DNA of 57,686 nt, taken from assembly GCA_012517475.1 (NCBI GenBank), contig JAAYUV010000057.1:1-57686 (forward strand), written 5' to 3'. Source of the stretch: Peptococcaceae bacterium. GTDB taxonomy: Bacteria > Bacillota > Desulfitobacteriia > Desulfitobacteriales > Syntrophobotulaceae. Position numbers and translations under genes: made by a program. Below, in pieces: positions 48,726 through 57,686 of the stretch (within the stretch, counting starts at the first letter, position 1; each line of letters begins with the position of its first letter). Under the pieces are notes generated by a model. It saw nothing but the letters and a program-made list of their open reading frames with translations. It did no database searches and was not told where the DNA came from.

Positions 48726-49409
48726 CTAGACGGATTTTATTCTATATTGTTTTGTTGGCCTGCCCACGGTTCCATACTCCAAATCCACAGTAATCTTTTC
48801 TTCATGAAGAAGATACTCCAGATAGCGCCAAACGGTTATTCTTGACATCGATAAAGCAGAAGCAATTTGCTGACAAGTCAGATAGTTGTCATGTTTTAGT
48901 AGAAAAGTCAGGATTTGTTCCAAGGTGATTAAATGAAGTCCTTTGGGGAGACTGGGCAGTGTCTTTTCCTTTTCTGCAAAAAGGTTTAACTGGTCCAGGT
49001 CATCTTGACTTAGCTTTGCTGTTTTAGATATCAGATTGCGAATTTTGAGATAACTTTTTAATGCTCTTTCCAGACGAATATCGTCAAAAGGTTTAAGAAT
49101 ATAGTCTATCGCGCCCAAGCGAAAGATCTTATTAATTGTCGCAGAATCGCTGGCGGCCGTGACGCAAATCACGTCAGACGGCAGCTCGAAATAGCGTATT
49201 TGTTTTAACAGATCTACTCCGTTTCCCTCCGGCAAGTAAATGTCCAATAAGACTAAATCAGGCCTAAGTTCTTTAATTCTCTCCAAAGCGTCCGTTTCTT
49301 CGGAACTTGATCCAACCACACAAAAATCCGGAAGTTTTTCAATATATTTTTTATTGATATAAGCCACCATGGGATCATCTTCTACAATATAGACCTTTGC
49401 TTTATTCAT
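48726..49409 (-). CDS. CitB/DcuR-family response regulator
   Basis: A 227-residue two-component regulator. The receiver domain has the acidic pair D11-D12, the phosphorylation site D56 in LVLLDIYLPEG and the conserved Lys in YILKPFDD. The C-terminal domain (LKHDNYLTCQQIASALSMSR, ITVWRYLEYLLHEEKI) is the helix-turn-helix of the CitT/DcuR/MalR class. Partners of this class sense extracellular citrate, fumarate, malate or similar acids. Its kinase gene lies upstream in the same direction, but an IS110 remnant separates the two, so it may now depend on a promoter in that element. Confidence 0.93.
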   Translation of the reverse strand: MNKAKVYIVEDDPMVAYINKKYIEKLPDFCVVGSSSEETDALERIKELRPDLVLLDIYLPEGNGVDLLKQIRYFELPSDVICVTAASDSATINKIFRLGAIDYILKPFDDIRLERALKSYLKIRNLISKTAKLSQDDLDQLNLFAEKEKTLPSLPKGLHLITLEQILTFLLKHDNYLTCQQIASALSMSRITVWRYLEYLLHEEKITVDLEYGTVGRPTKQYRIKSV

Positions 49410-49429: not shown

Positions 49430-49711
49430 GCTTCGCTCAAGGCACAAAACGGCATGAAACCGTTGCCCTTGAGCTTGCTTTATTTTAAAACTATCTTGTT
49501 GAGATTACAGGCAACTACAAATCACGTGGAGGTGAGTGCGCTGCTCCTTTGGGAGTAGACCGCATATTTATATGTGTGGACTGTCCTATCAAGCACAAAT
49601 AAGTGTGCCATTAGAGCACGAAGACTTATCTTTGTATAAACAACTCGTTTATAGCTGGACAATCAGTTAATGCCTGCTCTTCTCAATAATTCTTTGCGAA
49701 GGGAGACTTTA
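49430..49711 (+). mobile_element. IS110 element left end, candidate bridge-RNA region
   Basis: Between the response-regulator start and the transposase start are about 280 non-coding bases rich in secondary structure: CTCAAGG/CCTTGAG with inner AACGG/CCGTT (49436-49473), CTCC-TTTG-GGAG near 49552, and CCGCATA-TTTA-TATGTGTGG near 49560-49580. In IS110-group elements the sequence before the recombinase encodes a bridge RNA that pairs with target and donor DNA. Exact element ends cannot be set because IS110 elements lack terminal inverted repeats. Confidence 0.45.
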
Positions 49712-50771
49712 ATGCTAAAAATCGTTTACCCCATCTGTTGTGGAATTGATGTCCACAATAAGTTTCTTGTTGCCTGTATTGCCACTACCAATGACAAAGG
49801 GGTTACCACTTACAAGTCTCATCGTTTTTCTACCTACACAAATGATTTGCGAAAGCTTTCGGATTGGCTTTCCTCTAATTCCCGCCCACATGTTTGCATG
49901 GAATCAACCGGCAAATATTGGGTGCCTGTGTACAATATTTTGGAAGCCACCTGTAAAATCACTCTGGCCCATCCAAAGTACGTCAAGGCGATTCACGGCA
50001 AGAAAACCGATAAAAAGGATGCCAGATGGATTGCTGACCTGTTTAAGCACGACCTTGTTGCCGGAAGTTTTATGCCACCTCTCCCAATTCGTCAACTGCG
50101 TGACTTGATGCGTTACCGTTTCAAGCTCACAAACTTTAAGTCCAGCGAGAAGAACCGGATTCAAAATTGTCTTACTGTATCAAATATCCAGCTTGCCAAC
50201 GTGGTATCTGATACTTTCGGTAAGAGTTCAATGAAAATCATTGACTACTTGCTTGAAAATCCTGATGATAAGGATTTCGATTTTGTTCCTCTTCTTCACG
50301 CCTCCATGTTGAATAAGGTGGATAAGATCCGACTTGCTTTAGACGGGATGATTACCCCCGAGCAACAGCAAAAAATGAATATTATCCTTTAAACACTTGT
50401 GTTCCTGGACAGGGGTGACTCCTCAAAACAACGAGAGTGCGAGCAAAAAACATTCTGTGCGCATCTCCCGTGCCGGTGTTTATATCAAACCACTTTTAGT
50501 CCAATGTGCAAACGCAGTTGTTAAAAGCGATAAACACCCTGAAATCAAGGGCCGCTATTTGTCCGTTAAGAAGCGACGTGGACATAAGCGTGCTATTATT
50601 GCGGTTGCCCGAATGTTGCTAACCGCCATATATCACATCCTTAAGAAAGGAGAACCCTACAATCCCGAACTCTACAAAAAGGCAGAAATTATGCCGCAGA
50701 CTCGCAATATCACTGTAGAACAAGCTATTTTAATAGCTCGAAGGCACGGGTACTCAGTAATTAAGGGTTGA
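49712..50771 (+). pseudogene. IS110-family transposase, internally deleted and frame-disrupted
   Basis: 49712-50392 encodes the N-terminal DEDD domain: CGIDVHNKFLVA, MESTGKYWVPVYN and HGKKTDKKDARWIADL contain the catalytic acidic residues. The frame ends at TAA 50390-50392. From 50394 another frame continues the family's C-terminal domain: HLCSWTGVTPQNNESASKKH, then RISRAGVYIKPLLVQCANA, with the catalytic serine region. The segment of roughly 70-80 residues that normally joins these parts, including the PGI motif region, is absent, so the break is a deletion rather than a simple frameshift. The enzyme cannot be functional. It lies on the plus strand, opposite to the two-component genes it separates. 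Confidence 0.85.
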
Positions 50772-50840: not shown

Positions 50841-52451
50841 TTAGGTTATACCGCCAGAGTACTTGGTTTCAGACTTGTCCTCCCTATTCAAGTTATAAGG
50901 AATGATTACCCTGAATGTTGTTCCAAGTTCTCTGGAAATGACGATGACCTTTCCCCCTGCAACTTTTACTCTACCCTGGAGGTTAAACAGACCTAGTCCT
51001 TGGCCGTCTTTCTTTGTGGTAAATCCCTGATCGAAAATGTAAGGCAGAATATGGTCTGGTATTCCAGATCCGCTGTCACTTACTTCAATTTTTATCTCTT
51101 CAGCAGTTTGTTCGATCAGAATACTTACTTCGCGCTGTGATTTGTTGGAGGGTAAAGAATCAAAGGCGTTTTCAATTAAATTGCCTAAGACAATAACCAT
51201 GGCGTGTTCGTCGAAAAACGTTGGAAGCTTATATAACCTGCTTTTTTGGTCAATCATAAAACGAATTTGTTTTTCTTCCGCTTCGCTGGCTTTTCCCATT
51301 AAGAGACCTGCAACCGTGCTGGATTGTATGTGATCCATCAAAAAGCTGACTAAATTTCGTTCTTTGAAAGTTATTTCTGATATATATGAACGTGCTTCAT
51401 CCAGTGCTTCCAGGTTAATGAGGCCCAAAATGACGTGAAGTTTATTTAAATACTCATGAGTTCTCGCCCGTAACGCAGCGACAATTTTTTTAACCCCGGT
51501 TAGCTCTTCAGCAATTTTGTTAACCTCTGTCAGAGGACGAAAAGTTGCGATAGCTCCTACAATTTTTCCTTTAATGGTTAAGGCAACACGGTTAGTCATT
51601 ACAACACTATTGTTAATTATCAACTGTTGATCTTCCTGTAGGTAATTGGAGTCCATAACAGCGGGGAGTTGGGAATCTGGTATCAGCTCCCGGATGTCTC
51701 GCCCCAAAAAATGTGTATCAACTGGGAATAGATTCCTGGCCGTCTGATTAATCATCGTGATTTTGCAATTTTGATCTATTGCAATAATTCCCTCTTTTAC
51801 AGAATGGATGATGGTTTCTCTTTCCTGCAAACGGGTGGCTATTTCCAAAGGTTCCATTCCAAACATGATTTTTTTGACACTTCCAGCCAATAAGAAAGAA
51901 AAACAAATAATTAAAGCAAGACTGAAAGGTATGATGAAATAAAAAATATTATAAATCTTGGATAGAATCATAGAAATATCCGGTTGAAAGAAACCAACGG
52001 CAATGACGCCAACCTGGGTACTTCCGCGTAATATTGGCCGGAATGCCCGGATAGAAAGACCGGAAACCCCGACCGCTTTGGAAGTATAGGATTGACCGCG
52101 TAAAGCCGGGCCTTCATCTCCACCGGAAAAAGGGAGTCCGATTAATGAACGGTCCGGGTGGGTATAACGAATACCTTTCATGTCCATAAAGACAACGAAG
52201 ACAGCTTGAGTTTCCGCCCGGATTTCATCAGCAATTTCCTGCAAATTTTTGCTGGGGTCCCCGCTTGCATATGCCGAAATCACATCTTGCCGGGTTGCGG
52301 CCAGAGAAGCGATATCTAAAGCCTGGCGGGCAATTTGATTTTCGAAACTATTGATAAATGTATAATGAAGAATGGAAAGGGCAAGCAATAGGGGAATAAT
52401 ACTGCTAATCAAAGTAATGAAAAAAATACGGGCTTTAAGCGGGAGTTGCAT
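50841..52451 (-). CDS. CitA/DcuS-family sensor histidine kinase
   Basis: A 536-residue membrane kinase. Membrane helix 1 is at about residues 9-30 and helix 2 at about 170-192; between them is an extracytoplasmic Cache/PAS sensor (VFVVFMDMKGIRYTHPDRSL is typical of CitA/DcuS). A cytoplasmic PAS domain spans about 208-305. The Spo0B-type H-box is ALRARTHEYLNKLHVILGLI. The ATPase domain has NLIENAFDSL (N), VSDSGSGIPD (G1) and GLGLFNLQGRVKVAGG (G2). It probably senses a di- or tricarboxylate. It is transcribed away from the CODH-like operon, across a shared regulatory region. Confidence 0.95.
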   Translation of the reverse strand: MQLPLKARIFFITLISSIIPLLLALSILHYTFINSFENQIARQALDIASLAATRQDVISAYASGDPSKNLQEIADEIRAETQAVFVVFMDMKGIRYTHPDRSLIGLPFSGGDEGPALRGQSYTSKAVGVSGLSIRAFRPILRGSTQVGVIAVGFFQPDISMILSKIYNIFYFIIPFSLALIICFSFLLAGSVKKIMFGMEPLEIATRLQERETIIHSVKEGIIAIDQNCKITMINQTARNLFPVDTHFLGRDIRELIPDSQLPAVMDSNYLQEDQQLIINNSVVMTNRVALTIKGKIVGAIATFRPLTEVNKIAEELTGVKKIVAALRARTHEYLNKLHVILGLINLEALDEARSYISEITFKERNLVSFLMDHIQSSTVAGLLMGKASEAEEKQIRFMIDQKSRLYKLPTFFDEHAMVIVLGNLIENAFDSLPSNKSQREVSILIEQTAEEIKIEVSDSGSGIPDHILPYIFDQGFTTKKDGQGLGLFNLQGRVKVAGGKVIVISRELGTTFRVIIPYNLNREDKSETKYSGGIT

Positions 52452-52483
52452 ACACTTGCGTCCTTTCCAAGACTATTTTTATG

Positions 52484-52546
52484 TATTGTAACATCAATTT
52501 TTATCAATATTGTAATTTATCAATATTGTAACATCAATTTTATCAA
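52484..52546. promoter_or_regulatory. Three tandem AT-rich repeats in the divergent control region
   Basis: Three head-to-tail units begin with TATTGTAA and end with TATCAA: 52484-52507 (24 bases), 52508-52523 (16 bases, lacking the CATCAATTT middle) and 52524-52546 (23 bases). Units 1 and 3 are nearly identical. They lie between the kinase start (52451) and the CooF-like gene (52696), where binding sites for the response regulator are expected. No confident promoter was identified in 52547-52695, which is A-rich with AGAACAATA repeated twice. Confidence 0.6.
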
Positions 52547-52695
52547 CCGGGGTAAAGCAAACTGAAAAAACAATAAACAAAATCAGAACAATAAGAACAA
52601 TAAGAAAACAAAAAGAACATTTATAGGTGACATGGGATAAAAATAGAAAATATTCCATGTCTTTTTGATTAATGAAAGAAGGGAGGGAATATTTT

Positions 52696-53214
52696 ATGAC
52701 AAACAGTAATAGTTCCAAAAAAAGGATTTTCTGTGATCAGAAACTTTGCCTTGGGTGTAAAACATGTGAACTGCGCTGCGCGGTTGAAAGAAGTTCGGTC
52801 AGTAAAAGTTTAACAGACGCTGTAAGAGAGGGGATTCTCCCAAGACCCCGGGTATATGTAGAATGGGATGGAAACAGGCCCTTTGCCTTGCAGTGCCGTC
52901 ATTGCCAGGAGGCCCCCTGTTTGGAAATCTGTTCTACAGGTGCTTTGCGAAAAGATGAAGAGAGCGGATGCACTTATATTGACGGGGAGCGCTGCATTAG
53001 CTGCTGGATGTGTGTAATGGTCTGCCCGTATGGTATGATTGCTCCTGCTGTGGAAAAAAATGCCGCAGATAAATGCGACCAGTGTTTCCAAATGGCAGAG
53101 CCTTTCTGTCTGGCTTCATGTCCGACCGGAGCCCTGCAGCTATTGACTCCTGAAGAATATGAAAAAACTTTCGCCCAAAAGAGAATCAACGCTTTTCAGT
53201 CTCTAAATGGTTAA
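52696..53214 (+). CDS. CooF-like four-cluster ferredoxin
   Basis: A 172-residue polyferredoxin related to CooF, the electron carrier of CO dehydrogenases, and to HycB/DmsB-type subunits. Four cysteine sets are seen: CLGCKTCELRC, CRHCQEAPCLEIC, CISCWMCVMVC and CDQCFQMAEPFCLASC, predicting four [4Fe-4S] clusters. ATG 52696 follows AGGGAGG. It is the first gene of the operon divergent from the kinase and would accept or donate electrons to the CODH-like protein next door. Confidence 0.9.
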   Translation: MTNSNSSKKRIFCDQKLCLGCKTCELRCAVERSSVSKSLTDAVREGILPRPRVYVEWDGNRPFALQCRHCQEAPCLEICSTGALRKDEESGCTYIDGERCISCWMCVMVCPYGMIAPAVEKNAADKCDQCFQMAEPFCLASCPTGALQLLTPEEYEKTFAQKRINAFQSLNG

Positions 53215-53238
53215 GTTTGTTAAGGGGGATAAAAAAGA

Positions 53239-54609
53239 ATGCGTCAAGTTCGGAAAAAAAGCGCCGATCCGGCTGCCCGTCCTTATTTGCTTAAAGCGAG
53301 ACAAGAAGGTCTGGAATTATCCTGGAATCGATTTGAAAGTATGCTTCCGCAGGATGGATTCGGCAAGCTGGGATTAACCTGTTTTGAGTGTCTGCAAGGC
53401 CCGTGTCGGCTGAATCCTTTCAGTCAAAATGAAGAATTGACCATTTGCGGACGCAGCAAAGAAGATCTGGTCGGTCAAAACCTTCTCCGGATACTAAACC
53501 AATCATCCGATGCCCAAGAGGTGTTTGTTGCTGACAATCCCGGATCGACTTTAACAGAAAAACTATTAAAAACAGCACAGATGCAAATCGAGGAAAAGAA
53601 AAAGAACAGGGAATCCTTAAGTAAAGAGAAGATTTCCAAGCAAGTGGGCCTGGGAGTTTTAAGAGAGGATAAGGTAAATATTTGTCTGGAGGGTATAACT
53701 TCGTCAGTATTGAAGGCATGCGCTGCCCTGGCCGAAGAAATGACAGAGGAAGCGGTAAACAGAGGCGCCAAGGGCTATAACCTTGTCTTAGCGGGAGATG
53801 TAACTCCCCATTACCCAGTACCGACAGTGAGCAATGCCGGTGGGGTAGAGTTTGCTATATTGAGCGGAATTGTTGACCTATACGCAGTCGGAAAAACTGG
53901 TTTAGGTTTAGGGAAAAATGTAGTTTCCGCATATCATACTGTTTACAGAGATGCCCCTTCTCAACCGGAAAAAGAAGAGATCAAAGACTGGTTTGTACAG
54001 GCAGCCGTAGCATACGGAAAACGGAACAAGGCTAAGGTTTTACTTTCTGACCAGAACGGGCAGGCTGATTTGCTGCAGCTTAACCGGACTTTAATCAAAG
54101 CACATTTGGATCAGGGATCAATTCGGAAAATATGTGTTTTGACCGGAGGTTCCAGTGTAGCGGTTCAGGAAGATGCCTTGCTTTGTGAAGCTGCAGTTAA
54201 ACTGGCAGCCGAAGATGTCCTTTGTCTGGCTATAGGCAATGCGGCCGCAACGCTTGGCAAATATGGACTTTTAGCATCAGGAGCAAAAGAGGCCTCGGCT
54301 AATGTAACCCGAGCATTAGGAACGGATCAAGGAGCACCAGTATATTGGGCAGGAAGTGAAACAGAGATATTAGAAGTTTTAGATTTGATCGAAGGGGTTG
54401 GAGCAGAGCGCGTTTTGGCAATAGCTCCCGAACTTTCCACATCTGGTGATTTGCAGACGGCACTGGCATTGGCCGGAGCAGGTGTAAAAGTATTTACGGC
54501 TGTTCAACTGCCGGTCTATGGATGTGAGAAGGTGGCCAGGGATTTGGATGAGTTGATCAGCTCCTGTGCTCCAACAGATTTTGTGGAACGGATTATTGCT
54601 GAACTTTAG
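53239..54609 (+). CDS. Short CO-dehydrogenase (CooS)-like protein without C-cluster ligands
   Basis: A 456-residue protein related to CooS (usually about 630). C48, C51, C56 and C70 (TCFECLQGPCRLNPF, ICGRSKEDL) are at the exact positions of the B-cluster ligands of Carboxydothermus CODH-II. The D-cluster positions 39 and 47 are Asp and Thr. All six C-cluster ligands appear replaced: the HGH region reads CLEGIT, the C333 region GKTGLGLGK, the C446 region AIGNAAATLGKYGLL and the C476 region WAGSETEIL; the C295 and C526 segments also lack Cys. CO oxidation is therefore very unlikely. The scaffold with one [4Fe-4S] cluster may bind partners or transfer electrons. It is the second gene of the operon. 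Confidence 0.85.
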   Translation: MRQVRKKSADPAARPYLLKARQEGLELSWNRFESMLPQDGFGKLGLTCFECLQGPCRLNPFSQNEELTICGRSKEDLVGQNLLRILNQSSDAQEVFVADNPGSTLTEKLLKTAQMQIEEKKKNRESLSKEKISKQVGLGVLREDKVNICLEGITSSVLKACAALAEEMTEEAVNRGAKGYNLVLAGDVTPHYPVPTVSNAGGVEFAILSGIVDLYAVGKTGLGLGKNVVSAYHTVYRDAPSQPEKEEIKDWFVQAAVAYGKRNKAKVLLSDQNGQADLLQLNRTLIKAHLDQGSIRKICVLTGGSSVAVQEDALLCEAAVKLAAEDVLCLAIGNAAATLGKYGLLASGAKEASANVTRALGTDQGAPVYWAGSETEILEVLDLIEGVGAERVLAIAPELSTSGDLQTALALAGAGVKVFTAVQLPVYGCEKVARDLDELISSCAPTDFVERIIAEL

Positions 54610-54637
54610 TTTAAGTTTTCAGAAAGGAGGGTTTGTT

Positions 54638-55384
54638 TTGCGTATAGATGCCGCCAAATGTGTAGGCTGCGGGCAGTGTAGGCCGTTTTGTACCATGGGG
54701 TCCATTCATTTCCGGCGCAGTGAAAAAGGGACAAAGGTTCATTGTTATGTGGATGAAGAGGAGTGTGTTGACTGCGGGATCTGTTTCCGATCCAAAGTCT
54801 GTCCGGCGGATGCCCTATACCAGATTGTCCACGGTTGGCCACGTTCTATTAGGGGAACATTCAGTAATCCCCTGGCTGAGCATAAAGAGACAAGAGTTCC
54901 CGGCAGGGGCACGGAAGAAATGAAAACCAACGATATCACCAATCGTTTTAAAAGAGGATATGCCGGAATGGCCGCTGAAATGGGACGACCGGGAACGGGA
55001 GCCCGTCTTAGGGACGCAGAAAAAGTTTTCAAAGCTTTAGCCAAGTTGGGCGTAGAATTTGAACCCAATAACCCGTTGACCGGATTGCTGGCTAATAAAC
55101 AAACTGGCGAAATGAATCCGGAAGTCCTGAGCGAAAAAGTGCTTTCCGCCATTATCGAAATGGTTTTTCCGCTCGAAATGGTGATACCAGTATTGGATAC
55201 GATGGAAAAAGCCGCCCGGGAGATTGATACGGTTTTCTCCATTGACTTGGTAGCAAGGGTGGATGAAGACCTCTCTGTTCCTACGGCCAAGATTATGGAA
55301 AAATACGGAAGATGGTTCTCTTTTAACGGAAAAACAAATCTGGGCTTAGGTCGTCTCCAGGTGAAAGGAGCATATGTGTCATGA
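54638..55384 (+). CDS. Two-cluster ferredoxin fused to an unrecognised 190-residue domain
   Basis: A 248-residue protein. Residues 1-60 are a ferredoxin domain with CVGCGQCRPFC and CVDCGICFRSKVC, for two [4Fe-4S] clusters. Residues about 85-248 match no family I recognise: RFKRGYAGMAAEMGRPGTGA, RLRDAEKVFKALAKLGVEFE and VFSIDLVARVDEDL stand out. The domain has a conserved look (Gly/Arg-rich turn, then amphipathic helices) and no cysteine. TTG 54638 is the start, seven bases after AAAGGAGGG. It overlaps the next gene by four bases (ATGA), showing tight coupling. Confidence 0.85.
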   Translation: MRIDAAKCVGCGQCRPFCTMGSIHFRRSEKGTKVHCYVDEEECVDCGICFRSKVCPADALYQIVHGWPRSIRGTFSNPLAEHKETRVPGRGTEEMKTNDITNRFKRGYAGMAAEMGRPGTGARLRDAEKVFKALAKLGVEFEPNNPLTGLLANKQTGEMNPEVLSEKVLSAIIEMVFPLEMVIPVLDTMEKAAREIDTVFSIDLVARVDEDLSVPTAKIMEKYGRWFSFNGKTNLGLGRLQVKGAYVS

Positions 55385-56022
55385 CCCACACGCTGCATCG
55401 CAAAGGTACTCCCGAAAGTTTTGAGCATGATTATGTCGTATTCTCCATGACGGCAAAAGGTTTTAATGAAAAAAATTCACGCGGAGCATTGCAAAAGTTT
55501 CTCAGAATATTAAGCAAATATGAAATTGTCAATATGGGTGATATGAAAACAGGCGGAATGTATCTGGTGGACCAGGAACAGATTATTGACAACGTGCAGG
55601 ATACATCGATTGTTCATGCCGTATTTCAAGACAAGGATGAGGTCAGAAAAGCCCTAAAAGAACTTAAAGAAGCCGATTTGGGGGTATCGGTCATTGTATC
55701 GGGAATCGTTGCCGAAGTTGAGGGAGTCTGCCAGGATGTCGGGATAGAACGGCATACGGTGGAGTACTCGGTAGGAATCAGAGGGAATCTTTCCAGGCTT
55801 CCTGAAGAAGAACTCCTCGAAATAACAACCATGTGCGGACATGGTATGGTATCTCAGCATCTGGCCAGGCAGATGCTTCTGGATATCAAGAGGGGCAGAA
55901 GAAGTGCTCAGGAAGCAGGAGAAATCTTGGCTACCCCTTGTGTCTGCGGTGTTTTTAACCCCCACAGAGCGAGAAAATTACTGGAAGAATTGGTTGAAGT
56001 CTGGTGTTACGATGAGCTTTGA
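55381..56022 (+). CDS. Unrecognised protein with conserved-looking cysteine motifs
   Basis: A 213-residue soluble protein of no family I recognise. The N-terminal half (DYVVFSMTAKGFNEKNSRGA, LQKFLRILSKYEIVNMGDM) resembles a mixed alpha/beta ligand- or subunit-binding fold. The C-terminal half carries TTMCGHGMVSQHLARQMLLD and ATPCVCGVFNPHRARKLLEE; these Cys and His residues could bind a metal or Fe-S cluster. Its start overlaps the stop of the ferredoxin-fusion gene, so the two proteins are probably made together and may form a complex. Confidence 0.85.
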   Translation: MTHTLHRKGTPESFEHDYVVFSMTAKGFNEKNSRGALQKFLRILSKYEIVNMGDMKTGGMYLVDQEQIIDNVQDTSIVHAVFQDKDEVRKALKELKEADLGVSVIVSGIVAEVEGVCQDVGIERHTVEYSVGIRGNLSRLPEEELLEITTMCGHGMVSQHLARQMLLDIKRGRRSAQEAGEILATPCVCGVFNPHRARKLLEELVEVWCYDEL

Positions 56023-56043
56023 GGGGGAAAGGGGTTATAATTA

Positions 56044-57264
56044 ATGGCTTATTTGATCATTGGCAATGGTCCGGCAGGAGTAAGCGCGATTGAGCGGATC
56101 AGGGAGATTGATCCGCAGGGGAAGATCATGCTTGTTTCCAGGGAGAATAACCCTCCTTACAGTCGCATTATGACTCCGGAGTATATGATATCCGAAGTGG
56201 ACGAAGAAAATCTATTTTACCGAGGTACAGGGTTTTATGAAAGATATTCGGTTGAAACAAGATTGGGCTGTAAGGTGAAAGCCATTGTCCCCGAGAAAAA
56301 GACAGTTATCCTGGAGAACCAAGAGGAAATCGGATATAAACGTGTACTGATCGCTTCCGGTTCAAGGCCTATTGTACCTTCCTGGGCAGATACAGGGATC
56401 AAAGGGGTTTTTACACTCTGGGATAAAGCGGATTCCGTAGTTATTAACCAGCAACTGGGGGAGACCAAAGAGGCGGTTATTATCGGGGGAGGTTTGGTAG
56501 GGCTCCAAGCTGCCAGAGCATTGTCTGCCAGAAAGATTAAAGTAACTATTATTGAAAAAATGAAACAGCTTATGCCCTTGCAGTTGGATACTATCGCTTC
56601 TTCGCTTCTTCTTCAAGCCGTAATGAAACAAGGGATTGATGTTCATCTGGATACCGAAGTTCTTTCTCTTGAGAGTCAGAACGGAAAAATCACGGCTGTA
56701 GCTACCAAAGATCAAACCATTCCTGCAGACTTGGTTATTGTAGCTATCGGAGCCAAGCCAAATCTTGAAATGACCGTTGGAACAGCATTGGAGAGGGACA
56801 AGGGATTAATAACCAATGAATATATGCAAACAAATATTCCCGATATTTATGCGGCCGGCGATGTTGCTCAGGCGTATTGTCGGCTTACAGGGGAAAAGAC
56901 GGTAAGAGCACTTTGGTTATCTGCCGTGCAGCAAGGGAAGGTAGCTGGGGCCAATATGGCAGGCCGTCAAGAGAGATATTTAGGAAGCACAGCCATGAAT
57001 TCTATTCAACTCTTTGGACTTTCCATCATTTCTCAAGGACGGATTGAAGCTCTTCAGGAAACAGACGAAATTATTTTAAAGTATCAAGATAGGGGTGTTT
57101 ATCAAAAGCTTGTCTGTGAAGATGGAAGACTCATTGGTTTTATACTTGTCGGGGATGTACGGCAAGCAGGAGTTCTTCACTACAAACTTGGCCAAAGTCT
57201 CTTCTCTGGTTATTGGGGAGGTTTCAGGATCCCCGATGGCTATCAAGTAAATCCCACATTCTAA
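56044..57264 (+). CDS. FAD-dependent NAD(P)H oxidoreductase
   Basis: A 406-residue flavoprotein of the pyridine nucleotide-disulfide oxidoreductase class, similar to rubredoxin reductases and NirB N-terminal domains. The FAD site is IIGNGPAGVSAIERI, the NAD(P) site VIIGGGLVGLQAARAL and the second FAD motif DIYAAGDVAQAY. No redox-active CxxxxC pair is visible. CooS-CooF-flavoprotein operons are known, in which such an enzyme couples CO-derived electrons to NAD(P). Here it would couple the CODH-like complex to NAD(P)H. GGGG-rich sequence precedes the ATG, 22 bases after the previous gene. Confidence 0.93.
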   Translation: MAYLIIGNGPAGVSAIERIREIDPQGKIMLVSRENNPPYSRIMTPEYMISEVDEENLFYRGTGFYERYSVETRLGCKVKAIVPEKKTVILENQEEIGYKRVLIASGSRPIVPSWADTGIKGVFTLWDKADSVVINQQLGETKEAVIIGGGLVGLQAARALSARKIKVTIIEKMKQLMPLQLDTIASSLLLQAVMKQGIDVHLDTEVLSLESQNGKITAVATKDQTIPADLVIVAIGAKPNLEMTVGTALERDKGLITNEYMQTNIPDIYAAGDVAQAYCRLTGEKTVRALWLSAVQQGKVAGANMAGRQERYLGSTAMNSIQLFGLSIISQGRIEALQETDEIILKYQDRGVYQKLVCEDGRLIGFILVGDVRQAGVLHYKLGQSLFSGYWGGFRIPDGYQVNPTF

Positions 57265-57318
57265 ATTCAAATAAGATTTTATGGCCTTGGCTAAACTTCG
57301 ATGTCCTTGGGGACAAAG

Positions 57319-57388
57319 CATCCAATATAAGATTTATTAAATTGGATGGGTATGTCAAAGGAGGGGCAGATCCTGAAGAGGATCTGCC
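57319..57388 (+). terminator. Two hairpins after the oxidoreductase gene
   Basis: CATCCAAT (57319-57326) pairs with ATTGGATG (57341-57348). GGCAGATCCT (57365-57374), loop GAAG, pairs perfectly with AGGATCTGCC (57379-57388). No T tract follows the second, so termination is uncertain; the pair could form an attenuator or stabilising structure between the operon and the carrier gene. Confidence 0.45.
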
Positions 57389-57509
57389 ATCTGCCTAAAG
57401 CCCTTAAAGAAAACGCTATTATATAAATAAAACTTATTGTACTAAGGTATTTACTTATTTCGCAGAAAAGAAAATTTCATAGAAAGAAAGTATATAAGGA
57501 GGATGACAA

Positions 57510-57686
57510 ATGAGTTTAGGTTTTTTAGCTAATACTGGGTTTGCAAAGGCTCTTGCTGCCAACATGGACATGATCTCCCTGATCGTAATCGTCATAGCCA
57601 TTATCATTACAATTTGGAAAGATACCAACCTGGGAACTCTTGCTCTTGGTATGGCGCTTGTAGTAGGTTATTTCATCGGCGGAATA
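57510..57686 (+). CDS. Membrane carrier, MatC-like N-terminus (3' end outside window)
   Basis: The first 59 codons are present, starting at ATG 57510, six bases after AAGGAGG. Residues about 20-37 (DMISLIVIVIAIIITIWKDT) and 42-59 (LGTLALGMALVVGYFIGGI) are two membrane helices arranged as in the N-terminal domain of MatC-type dicarboxylate carriers. A dicarboxylate carrier would match the CitA/DcuS-type sensor encoded upstream. The rest of the gene is outside the window, so the assignment is tentative. Confidence 0.6.
   Translation, partial: MSLGFLANTGFAKALAANMDMISLIVIVIAIIITIWKDTNLGTLALGMALVVGYFIGGI

Follow-up and report, generated by a model that had tools for sequence, protein, structure and literature searches.

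What does a relative of CO dehydrogenase (CODH) do once its CO site is gone, and what are the two unnamed proteins encoded beside it? Both questions are raised by a five-gene operon (positions 52696-57264, forward strand, gene order P1-P2-P3-P4-P5) near the end of contig JAAYUV010000057.1 from a Peptococcaceae bacterium (assembly GCA_012517475.1). The DNA analysed, hereafter the window, is 57,686 nucleotides (nt) long and makes up the entire contig C111 of a draft genome of 3.68 Mb. The pair P3-P4, not the CODH-derived P2, is the core of the system, and it is widespread without any CODH-like protein. The first-pass annotation had taken the system for a CODH-like complex plus two additional proteins. 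Because P3-P4 occur so widely on their own, this description is backwards, and the pair is the informative part.

All five genes lie on the forward strand. P1 (52696-53214) encodes a CooF-like polyferredoxin of the HydN/DmsB/CooF sort, with four 4-Cys motifs, equal to four clusters (Fer4_11, 59.9 bits), and is 68-74% identical to its relatives. A Shine-Dalgarno-like AGGGAGG favours its ATG at 52696 over that at 52672. P2 (53239-54609, 456 amino acids (aa)) is CODH-derived and has the B-cluster cysteines only (TIGR01702, 86.6 bits; Prismane, 45.6 bits). P3 (54638-55384, likely start codon TTG at 54638) is a 2[4Fe-4S] ferredoxin, matched by Pfam Fer4 in its N-terminal part only, fused to an unnamed ACT/PII-like domain. 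P4 (55381-56022), whose ATG overlaps the P3 stop (ATGA at 55381), is unnamed and consists of a ferredoxin-like N-domain and a helical C-domain, with a TMCGH...CxCG motif (C152, H154, C187, C189). P5 (56044-57264) is an FAD/NAD(P)H flavoprotein, similar to PadH and to FAD-dependent NAD(P) oxidoreductases (FNOR) (Pyr_redox_2, 195 bits; Rubredoxin_C, 44.9 bits); its closest NCBIfam model is PadH, at 270 bits with a cut-off of 475. Gene calls and Pfam/NCBIfam searches thus recovered everything the first-pass annotation had listed here, namely the five genes, the ATGA overlap and a divergent CitA/DcuS-type kinase.

P2 scored well under the curated cut-off of the Ni,Fe-CODH equivalog model TIGR01702 (86.6 against 478 bits), and its alignment to CODH-II of C. 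hydrogenoformans spans residues 5-89. Cluster columns were counted in an alignment of 23 P2 sequences with three genuine CODHs encoded in the genome of the window. The B-cluster cysteines (C48, C51, C56 and C70 of P2) were kept in all 23 sequences. In the window P2, Asp and Thr occupy the D-cluster positions; one or both D-cluster cysteines were present only in L071, L073, L118, L127 and L130. The C-cluster ligands (His259, Cys295, Cys333, Cys451, Cys481 and Cys523 in L003 numbering) were absent from the window P2, in agreement with the earlier statement that the CO site is gone, and the ligand set was missing in 22 of the 23 sequences. The exception, a 603-aa protein from Aerophobetes (L127:6008-7819) with 27-32% identity to true CODHs, retained the D-cluster and five C-cluster columns, with the His and the first Cys missing; it is a possible intermediate between CODH and a relay form. 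P2 was also the fastest-evolving protein, with 32-64% identity between relatives and the window copy, compared with 77-88% for P3 and 71-82% for P4, and its length ranged from 391 to 619 aa. P2 thus belongs, distantly, to the CODH/prismane superfamily; it probably no longer converts CO and may act as a relay or scaffold.

P2-type genes were always found close to P4. In 101 related genomes there were 13 of them, the window included, all with P4 within ~2.5 kb; 398 Bacillota genomes added three more, again each with P4 close. This gives 16 P2-type genes in ~480 Bacillota genomes, with P4 within ~2.5 kb of every one. Real CODHs formed a separate score class (frames of at least 600 aa, 313 bits or less). 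The one short CODH-like frame without P4 that was examined, in genome G084, turned out to be a frame-shifted AcsA beside AcsB. P1 and P5 accompanied P2 at nearly all P2 loci. Bacillota have the gene order P1-P2-P3-P4-P5, and P1-P2-P5-P3-P4 is frequent outside the phylum. The five-gene synteny was seen again in at least 11 further genomes, which places the arrangement far beyond chance. With all P2-type genes linked to P4, the scattering of homologues that would have spoken against a single five-gene unit, as proposed in the first-pass annotation, did not occur.

P4 itself reaches much further. It was present in 27 of the 398 Bacillota genomes, with up to seven copies per genome, and a P4 alignment search of species genomes returned 142 loci. 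The best 80 of these came from Bacillota, Chloroflexota, deltaproteobacterial lineages, Acidobacteriota, Gemmatimonadota, Aerophobetes, Desulfurococcales, Sulfolobales and others; no P4 was found in the plasmid collection. P3 lay within 300 nt of P4 at 115 of 124 P4 hits, in the order P3-P4 in 112 of them. In a tree of 70 P4 sequences, the 16 P2-linked copies from Bacillota, including that of the window, fell into one clade (100/99), and four to seven gains or losses of the P2 link were required overall.

Conservation was scored on the same number of P4 members (70). Exactly three cysteines were conserved, C152 in 70/70, C187 in 69/70 and C189 in 69/70, and two histidines, H6 and H154, were invariant (100%). 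Three Cys and a His would fit a site-differentiated [4Fe-4S] cluster with one free iron. In P3, eight ligand cysteines were accompanied by invariant E94, K96, R117 and K232 (100%), a set that is unusual in a protein that only carries electrons. AlphaFold2 gave confident models for both proteins (pLDDT 87.6 for P3 and 91.9 for P4). By fold search, the second domain of the P3 model is ACT/PII-like, a weak match (best Foldseek E 0.0033); matches of the P4 model were weak as well (best Foldseek E 0.035, Z 7.4 or less). No Pfam or NCBIfam family was assigned to P4 in any of the 70 members, and no Pfam model matched the second domain of P3. The P4 profile hit nothing below E 0.36 among PDB sequences, and no PDB chain gave a significant fold match. 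A PADLOC scan returned nothing.

Several ideas on P3 and P4 were dropped. Matches of P4 to named families were scattered and weak (DUF749 in 11 members, best E 0.0028; argB in 10 members, best E 0.0021), and we did not believe them. A common origin of P4 and the second domain of P3 received an hhalign probability of 1.9%. A suspected tie to methanogenesis marker proteins was abandoned as well, as no such model matched, in a searched set without methanogen genomes. P4 genes with apparent inner stops gave no sign of recoding; some of these are conserved 139-aa forms with the N-domain only, and those at L099, L105 and L119 had merely been read past a natural stop.

Two variants of the pair were seen. 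At L050-L052 and L055 (Desulfosporosinus, Gracilibacter), P4 was split into an N-domain-only form of 139-140 aa, which follows P3, and a Cys-domain form of 180 aa (or 121 aa). These split forms adjoin P1-P2 and P5 in some loci and share a common sugar-acid/TTT cluster with IlvD and Nuo-like genes. A long P3, with ~40 extra residues within its ferredoxin part, was found at L104, L109, L116, L126, L131 and L136. The P4 proteins of these loci form a separate clade, usually without transporter or catabolic neighbours.

The neighbours of P3-P4 point to carboxylate metabolism. Transporter genes of the TTT, TRAP or 2HCT type were located near P4 at 14/20 loci found by profile, 12/20 loci of relatives and 26/80 loci found by pattern, compared with 1/20 random stretches of P4-bearing genomes. 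Other recurrent neighbours were LarA, GlcD/GlcF, Ldh_2, AOR, POR, PdxA, aconitase-type enzymes, AllG, ETF-like genes and a thiamine-diphosphate (TPP) enzyme with CoA-transferases. At L169, L178 and L179 the pair had only a regulator and a transporter for company, and pairs were also seen inside transporter operons, in the order TctC-[P3-P4]-TctB-TctA. The carboxylic-acid link suggested by the first-pass annotation is strong across phyla (14/20 against 1/20), but its 'dicarboxylate' was too narrow, as hydroxy acids, tricarboxylates, sugar acids and oxamate-type contexts were represented too.

In the lineage of the window, the nearest relative has GlcD-GlcF-P1-P2-P3-P4-P5, and GlcD-GlcF were directly upstream of P1-P5 at L037/L057 and L061. 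In Desulfosporosinus sp. SRJS8, PorC, a carrier, an aconitase-like gene, GlcD, GlcF and P1-P5 are contiguous on one strand. In the genome of the window, a carrier 3' end lies on contig C103 together with a TerC-like gene, an aconitase-like gene, GlcD and GlcF. From these linked POR, carrier, aconitase-like and GlcD-GlcF genes it follows that the P1-P5 operon is probably part of a regulon for carboxylate uptake and 2-hydroxy/2-oxoacid oxidation.

Individual pairs stood in further contexts. A second pair in the genome of the window (L054, G000:C2, 10073-11460) neighbours aconitase-type genes, an isocitrate/isopropylmalate dehydrogenase, TctC/TctB/TctA and a sigma-54 activator. In an Anaerolineaceae metagenome-assembled genome (L074:7689-12109), P3-P4 were located between an FdrA-like CoA-ligase gene and AllG, an oxamate carbamoyltransferase, which hints at oxamate or allantoin breakdown. 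One operon at L180:7896-17830 combines two P3-P4 pairs with a TTT transporter, an ADP-forming acyl-CoA synthetase and genes for indolepyruvate oxidoreductase-like subunits; it likely serves an aromatic 2-hydroxy/2-oxoacid pathway.

The reading that we prefer, tentatively and at somewhat less than an even chance, is that P3-P4 form an iron-sulphur (Fe-S) enzyme acting on an imported carboxylate, with P1, P2 and P5 as a repurposed CODH-CooF-FNOR unit that wires it to NAD(P)H. The pair would be a two-protein enzyme of a family not yet described, and its substrate a small hydroxy- or oxo-carboxylic acid brought in by the neighbouring carrier. We infer that P4 binds this substrate at a [4Fe-4S] cluster held by C152, C187 and C189, with H154 nearby, and that P3 relays electrons through its two [4Fe-4S] clusters. 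P1, P2 and P5 would be a former CO dehydrogenase-CooF-FNOR electron-transfer unit, in which P2 is a CODH whose CO-converting C-cluster has gone and whose B-cluster remains as relay or scaffold. Since the B-cluster was retained and the C-cluster lost, electrons could pass between P3-P4 and NAD(P)H, along the route P5-P1-P2-P3 in a putative complex of these proteins. With GlcD-GlcF, aconitase-like and POR genes linked to the operon, our best guess for the direction in this lineage is 2-hydroxy acid oxidation. A wider version is possible but more doubtful. Here P3-P4 would represent a new class of Fe-S oxidoreductases in bacteria and archaea, in which a ferredoxin subunit drives hydroxy/oxo-acid chemistry at a three-Cys [4Fe-4S] cluster, substrate-specific paralogues pair with individual carboxylate transporters, and, in the lineage of the window, a captured CODH has decayed into an electron relay.

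Several points weigh against the preferred reading. The wide variety of neighbouring pathways fits poorly with a single enzyme reaction. Some Desulfosporosinus copies of P4 are shortened to 139 aa, and the Cys domain is absent from them. Fold searches found a relative with a known reaction neither for P4 nor for the second domain of P3. Part of the invariance of C152 and H154 is a product of the selection, because the P4 set from the species-genome search was fetched with a pattern containing TMCGH; among full-length P4 genes found by profile alone, both MCGH and the CxC pair were present in 27/27, with only the flanking residues varying.

The chief rival would make P3-P4 an electron-confurcating or adaptor module that converts no substrate and links ordinary dehydrogenases (GlcD-GlcF, AOR, POR, Ldh_2) to ferredoxin and NAD(P)H. 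In the window, P1-P5 would then let a 2-hydroxyacid dehydrogenase reduce NAD+ with the help of reduced ferredoxin. The EtfAB-linked lactate dehydrogenase of acetogens, which reduces NAD+ in this way, offers a parallel. GlcD-GlcF immediately 5' of P1-P5 at L037/L057 and L061, AOR, POR and ETF-like genes close to other pairs, and the nature of P5 as an NAD(P)H flavoprotein are all as expected for such a module. However, many pairs, such as those at L169, L178 and L179, have a transporter and a regulator but no dehydrogenase, and only a single flavin site is evident. Nor is it obvious why an adaptor would require the invariant Arg/Lys/Glu set or as many as seven paralogues in one genome. We regard this explanation as somewhat unlikely.

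The other explanations are less likely still. If P3-P4 were PII/ACT-like Fe-S redox or metabolite sensors gating the adjacent carboxylate transporter or operon, the many pairs within or beside transporter operons (TctC-[P3-P4]-TctB-TctA) would be accounted for, as would the ferredoxin-like ACT/PII-like domains of both proteins, with their weak Foldseek/VIA matches to aspartokinase ACT and SbtB/PII. Those matches (Z under 8, E above 0.001) may stem from a widespread arrangement, though, and some pairs that have no transporter lie by AOR, LarA, GlcD or TPP-enzyme genes. A sensor role, which we consider unlikely, also offers no reason why P2 is so strictly tied to P4. P2 could instead still be the enzyme, with a reduced CODH/HCP-like site for another small molecule and P3-P4 as accessory or maturation proteins. 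Its membership in the Prismane/CODH superfamily and the part of the C-cluster ligand set retained in L127 speak for this, but 22 of the 23 P2 sequences have no ligand set in the C-cluster columns. The length of P2 varies (391-619 aa), it evolves fastest, and P3-P4 are common without it, all of which makes residual catalysis very improbable. Equally improbable is a role of P3-P4 in assembling or repairing the metal centres of neighbouring carboxylate-metabolising enzymes. Many unrelated Fe-S, nickel or tungsten enzymes (LarA, AOR, aconitase-type) do have the pair as a neighbour, but pairs beside transporters alone and pair-specific paralogues point to substrate specificity, and no clear role would be left for P5-P1-P2.

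Control of the operon by a dicarboxylate-type two-component system, another proposal of the first-pass annotation, is plausible as a local feature. Divergent from P1 lies a sensor kinase gene of the DcuS/MalK/CitA type (50841-52451, reverse strand; sCache_3_2, SPOB_a, HATPase_c). The sCache_3-type sensor, PAS, SPOB_a and HATPase parts were all present in this order, and the best NCBIfam match was NF008298 (DcuS/MalK), at 454.8 bits slightly below the cut-off of 520. A gene for a DcuR/DpiA-type response regulator (NF007750, 162 bits) is found at 48726-49409 on the same strand. In the Desulfosporosinus relatives L039, L040 and L044, an orthologue of the kinase (62% identical) occupies the same place with the regulator directly after it, so the 48726-49409 regulator is probably the cognate one. 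In the window, an IS110-type transposase gene in two pieces with a frame break (49670-50771, forward strand; PF01548, PF02371) is inserted between the two genes, and the two-component system may therefore be altered or impaired in this strain. The kinase-P1 intergenic region contains AT-rich direct repeats (TATTGTAACATCAATTTT twice and TTTATCAATATTGTAA twice; 52475-52541), which may be a regulator-binding site. A promoter and terminator scan yielded no more than shuffled sequence. A DcuS/DcuR pair was seen at three further loci only; the others have PrpR-type sigma-54 activators, GntR regulators or none.

The MatC-like carrier announced downstream of P5 is present as a 5' end of 177 bases (57510-57686, forward strand); it has only 59 codons because contig C111 ends there. 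The fragment is 57-71% identical to frames of 435-465 aa in relatives. It has no Pfam match itself, and a full-length relative with 64% identity over the fragment is assigned to MatC_N (PF07158, 99.8 bits) and CitMHS. The contig ends within a repeat, as 57281-57686 matched G000:C58:1-398 (L211) over 408 bases at 92% identity. The genome thus holds the 5' region of the carrier twice, the second copy on C58 after a PrpR-PorABC cluster. Carrier 3' ends were found at the ends of contigs C100 and C103.

If the preferred reading of P3-P4 as an Fe-S enzyme is true, the pair would be a missing step in anaerobic hydroxy- and oxo-carboxylate breakdown, with a subunit, P4, for which there is no Pfam or NCBIfam model. 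The hosts concerned would be Desulfosporosinus, Hungatella, Dehalococcoidia, deltaproteobacteria and some archaea. Since many pairs are located beside a transporter, a substrate can be guessed for each such locus. CODH homologues would then have to be sorted into CO enzymes and electron-transfer derivatives without a C-cluster, the latter being filtered out unseen by present surveys.

Among known systems, the Ni-CODH/CooF/FNOR electron-transfer unit published for CO is closest in composition (PMC6344411, PMC4703632, PMC11338639). The same three protein types, a CooF-like ferredoxin, a CODH-superfamily protein and an FAD-dependent NAD(P) oxidoreductase, are encoded in one operon here. In contrast to that unit, P2 has no C-cluster ligands and thus probably no CO-converting site as electron source, and P2 proteins are mostly without a D-cluster; P3 and P4 are added, and the context is one of carboxylates rather than CO. 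In the published CODH surveys, sequences were dropped when they were short or had deleted or mutated clusters (PMC6344411, PMC4703632, PMC11338639), so that a P2-type derivative would be passed over by such filters. The mini-CooS of Thermosinus carboxydivorans is, like P2, a shortened and divergent CODH-like protein, but it is reported to have a complete metal-cluster motif (PMC8776680), whereas in P2 the C-cluster is missing and the motif incomplete. No description of the operon was found in the searched passages of the CODH surveys, the mini-CooS work and a CODH genomic-context study. The NADH-dependent phenylglyoxylate dehydrogenase uses a similar flavoprotein and ferredoxin, PadH and PadI, in the service of a 2-oxoacid oxidoreductase. 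P5 resembles PadH (270 bits) and P1 the ferredoxin part of PadI (71 bits), but both scored below the curated cut-offs (475 and 700), and the operon is without thiamine-diphosphate subunits. The kinase and regulator beside the operon belong to the DcuS-DcuR/CitA-CitB/MalK-MalR family; they differ in that the pair is split by IS110 here and is present at a minority of P1-P5 loci. Aconitase and enzymes of the IspG/IspH type have three-Cys [4Fe-4S] clusters and bind the substrate at the free iron, and IspH is reductant-linked. Our searches found no sequence or fold relation between them and P4; the likeness lies in the three conserved Cys and polar residues of P4 and in its small-carboxylate context.

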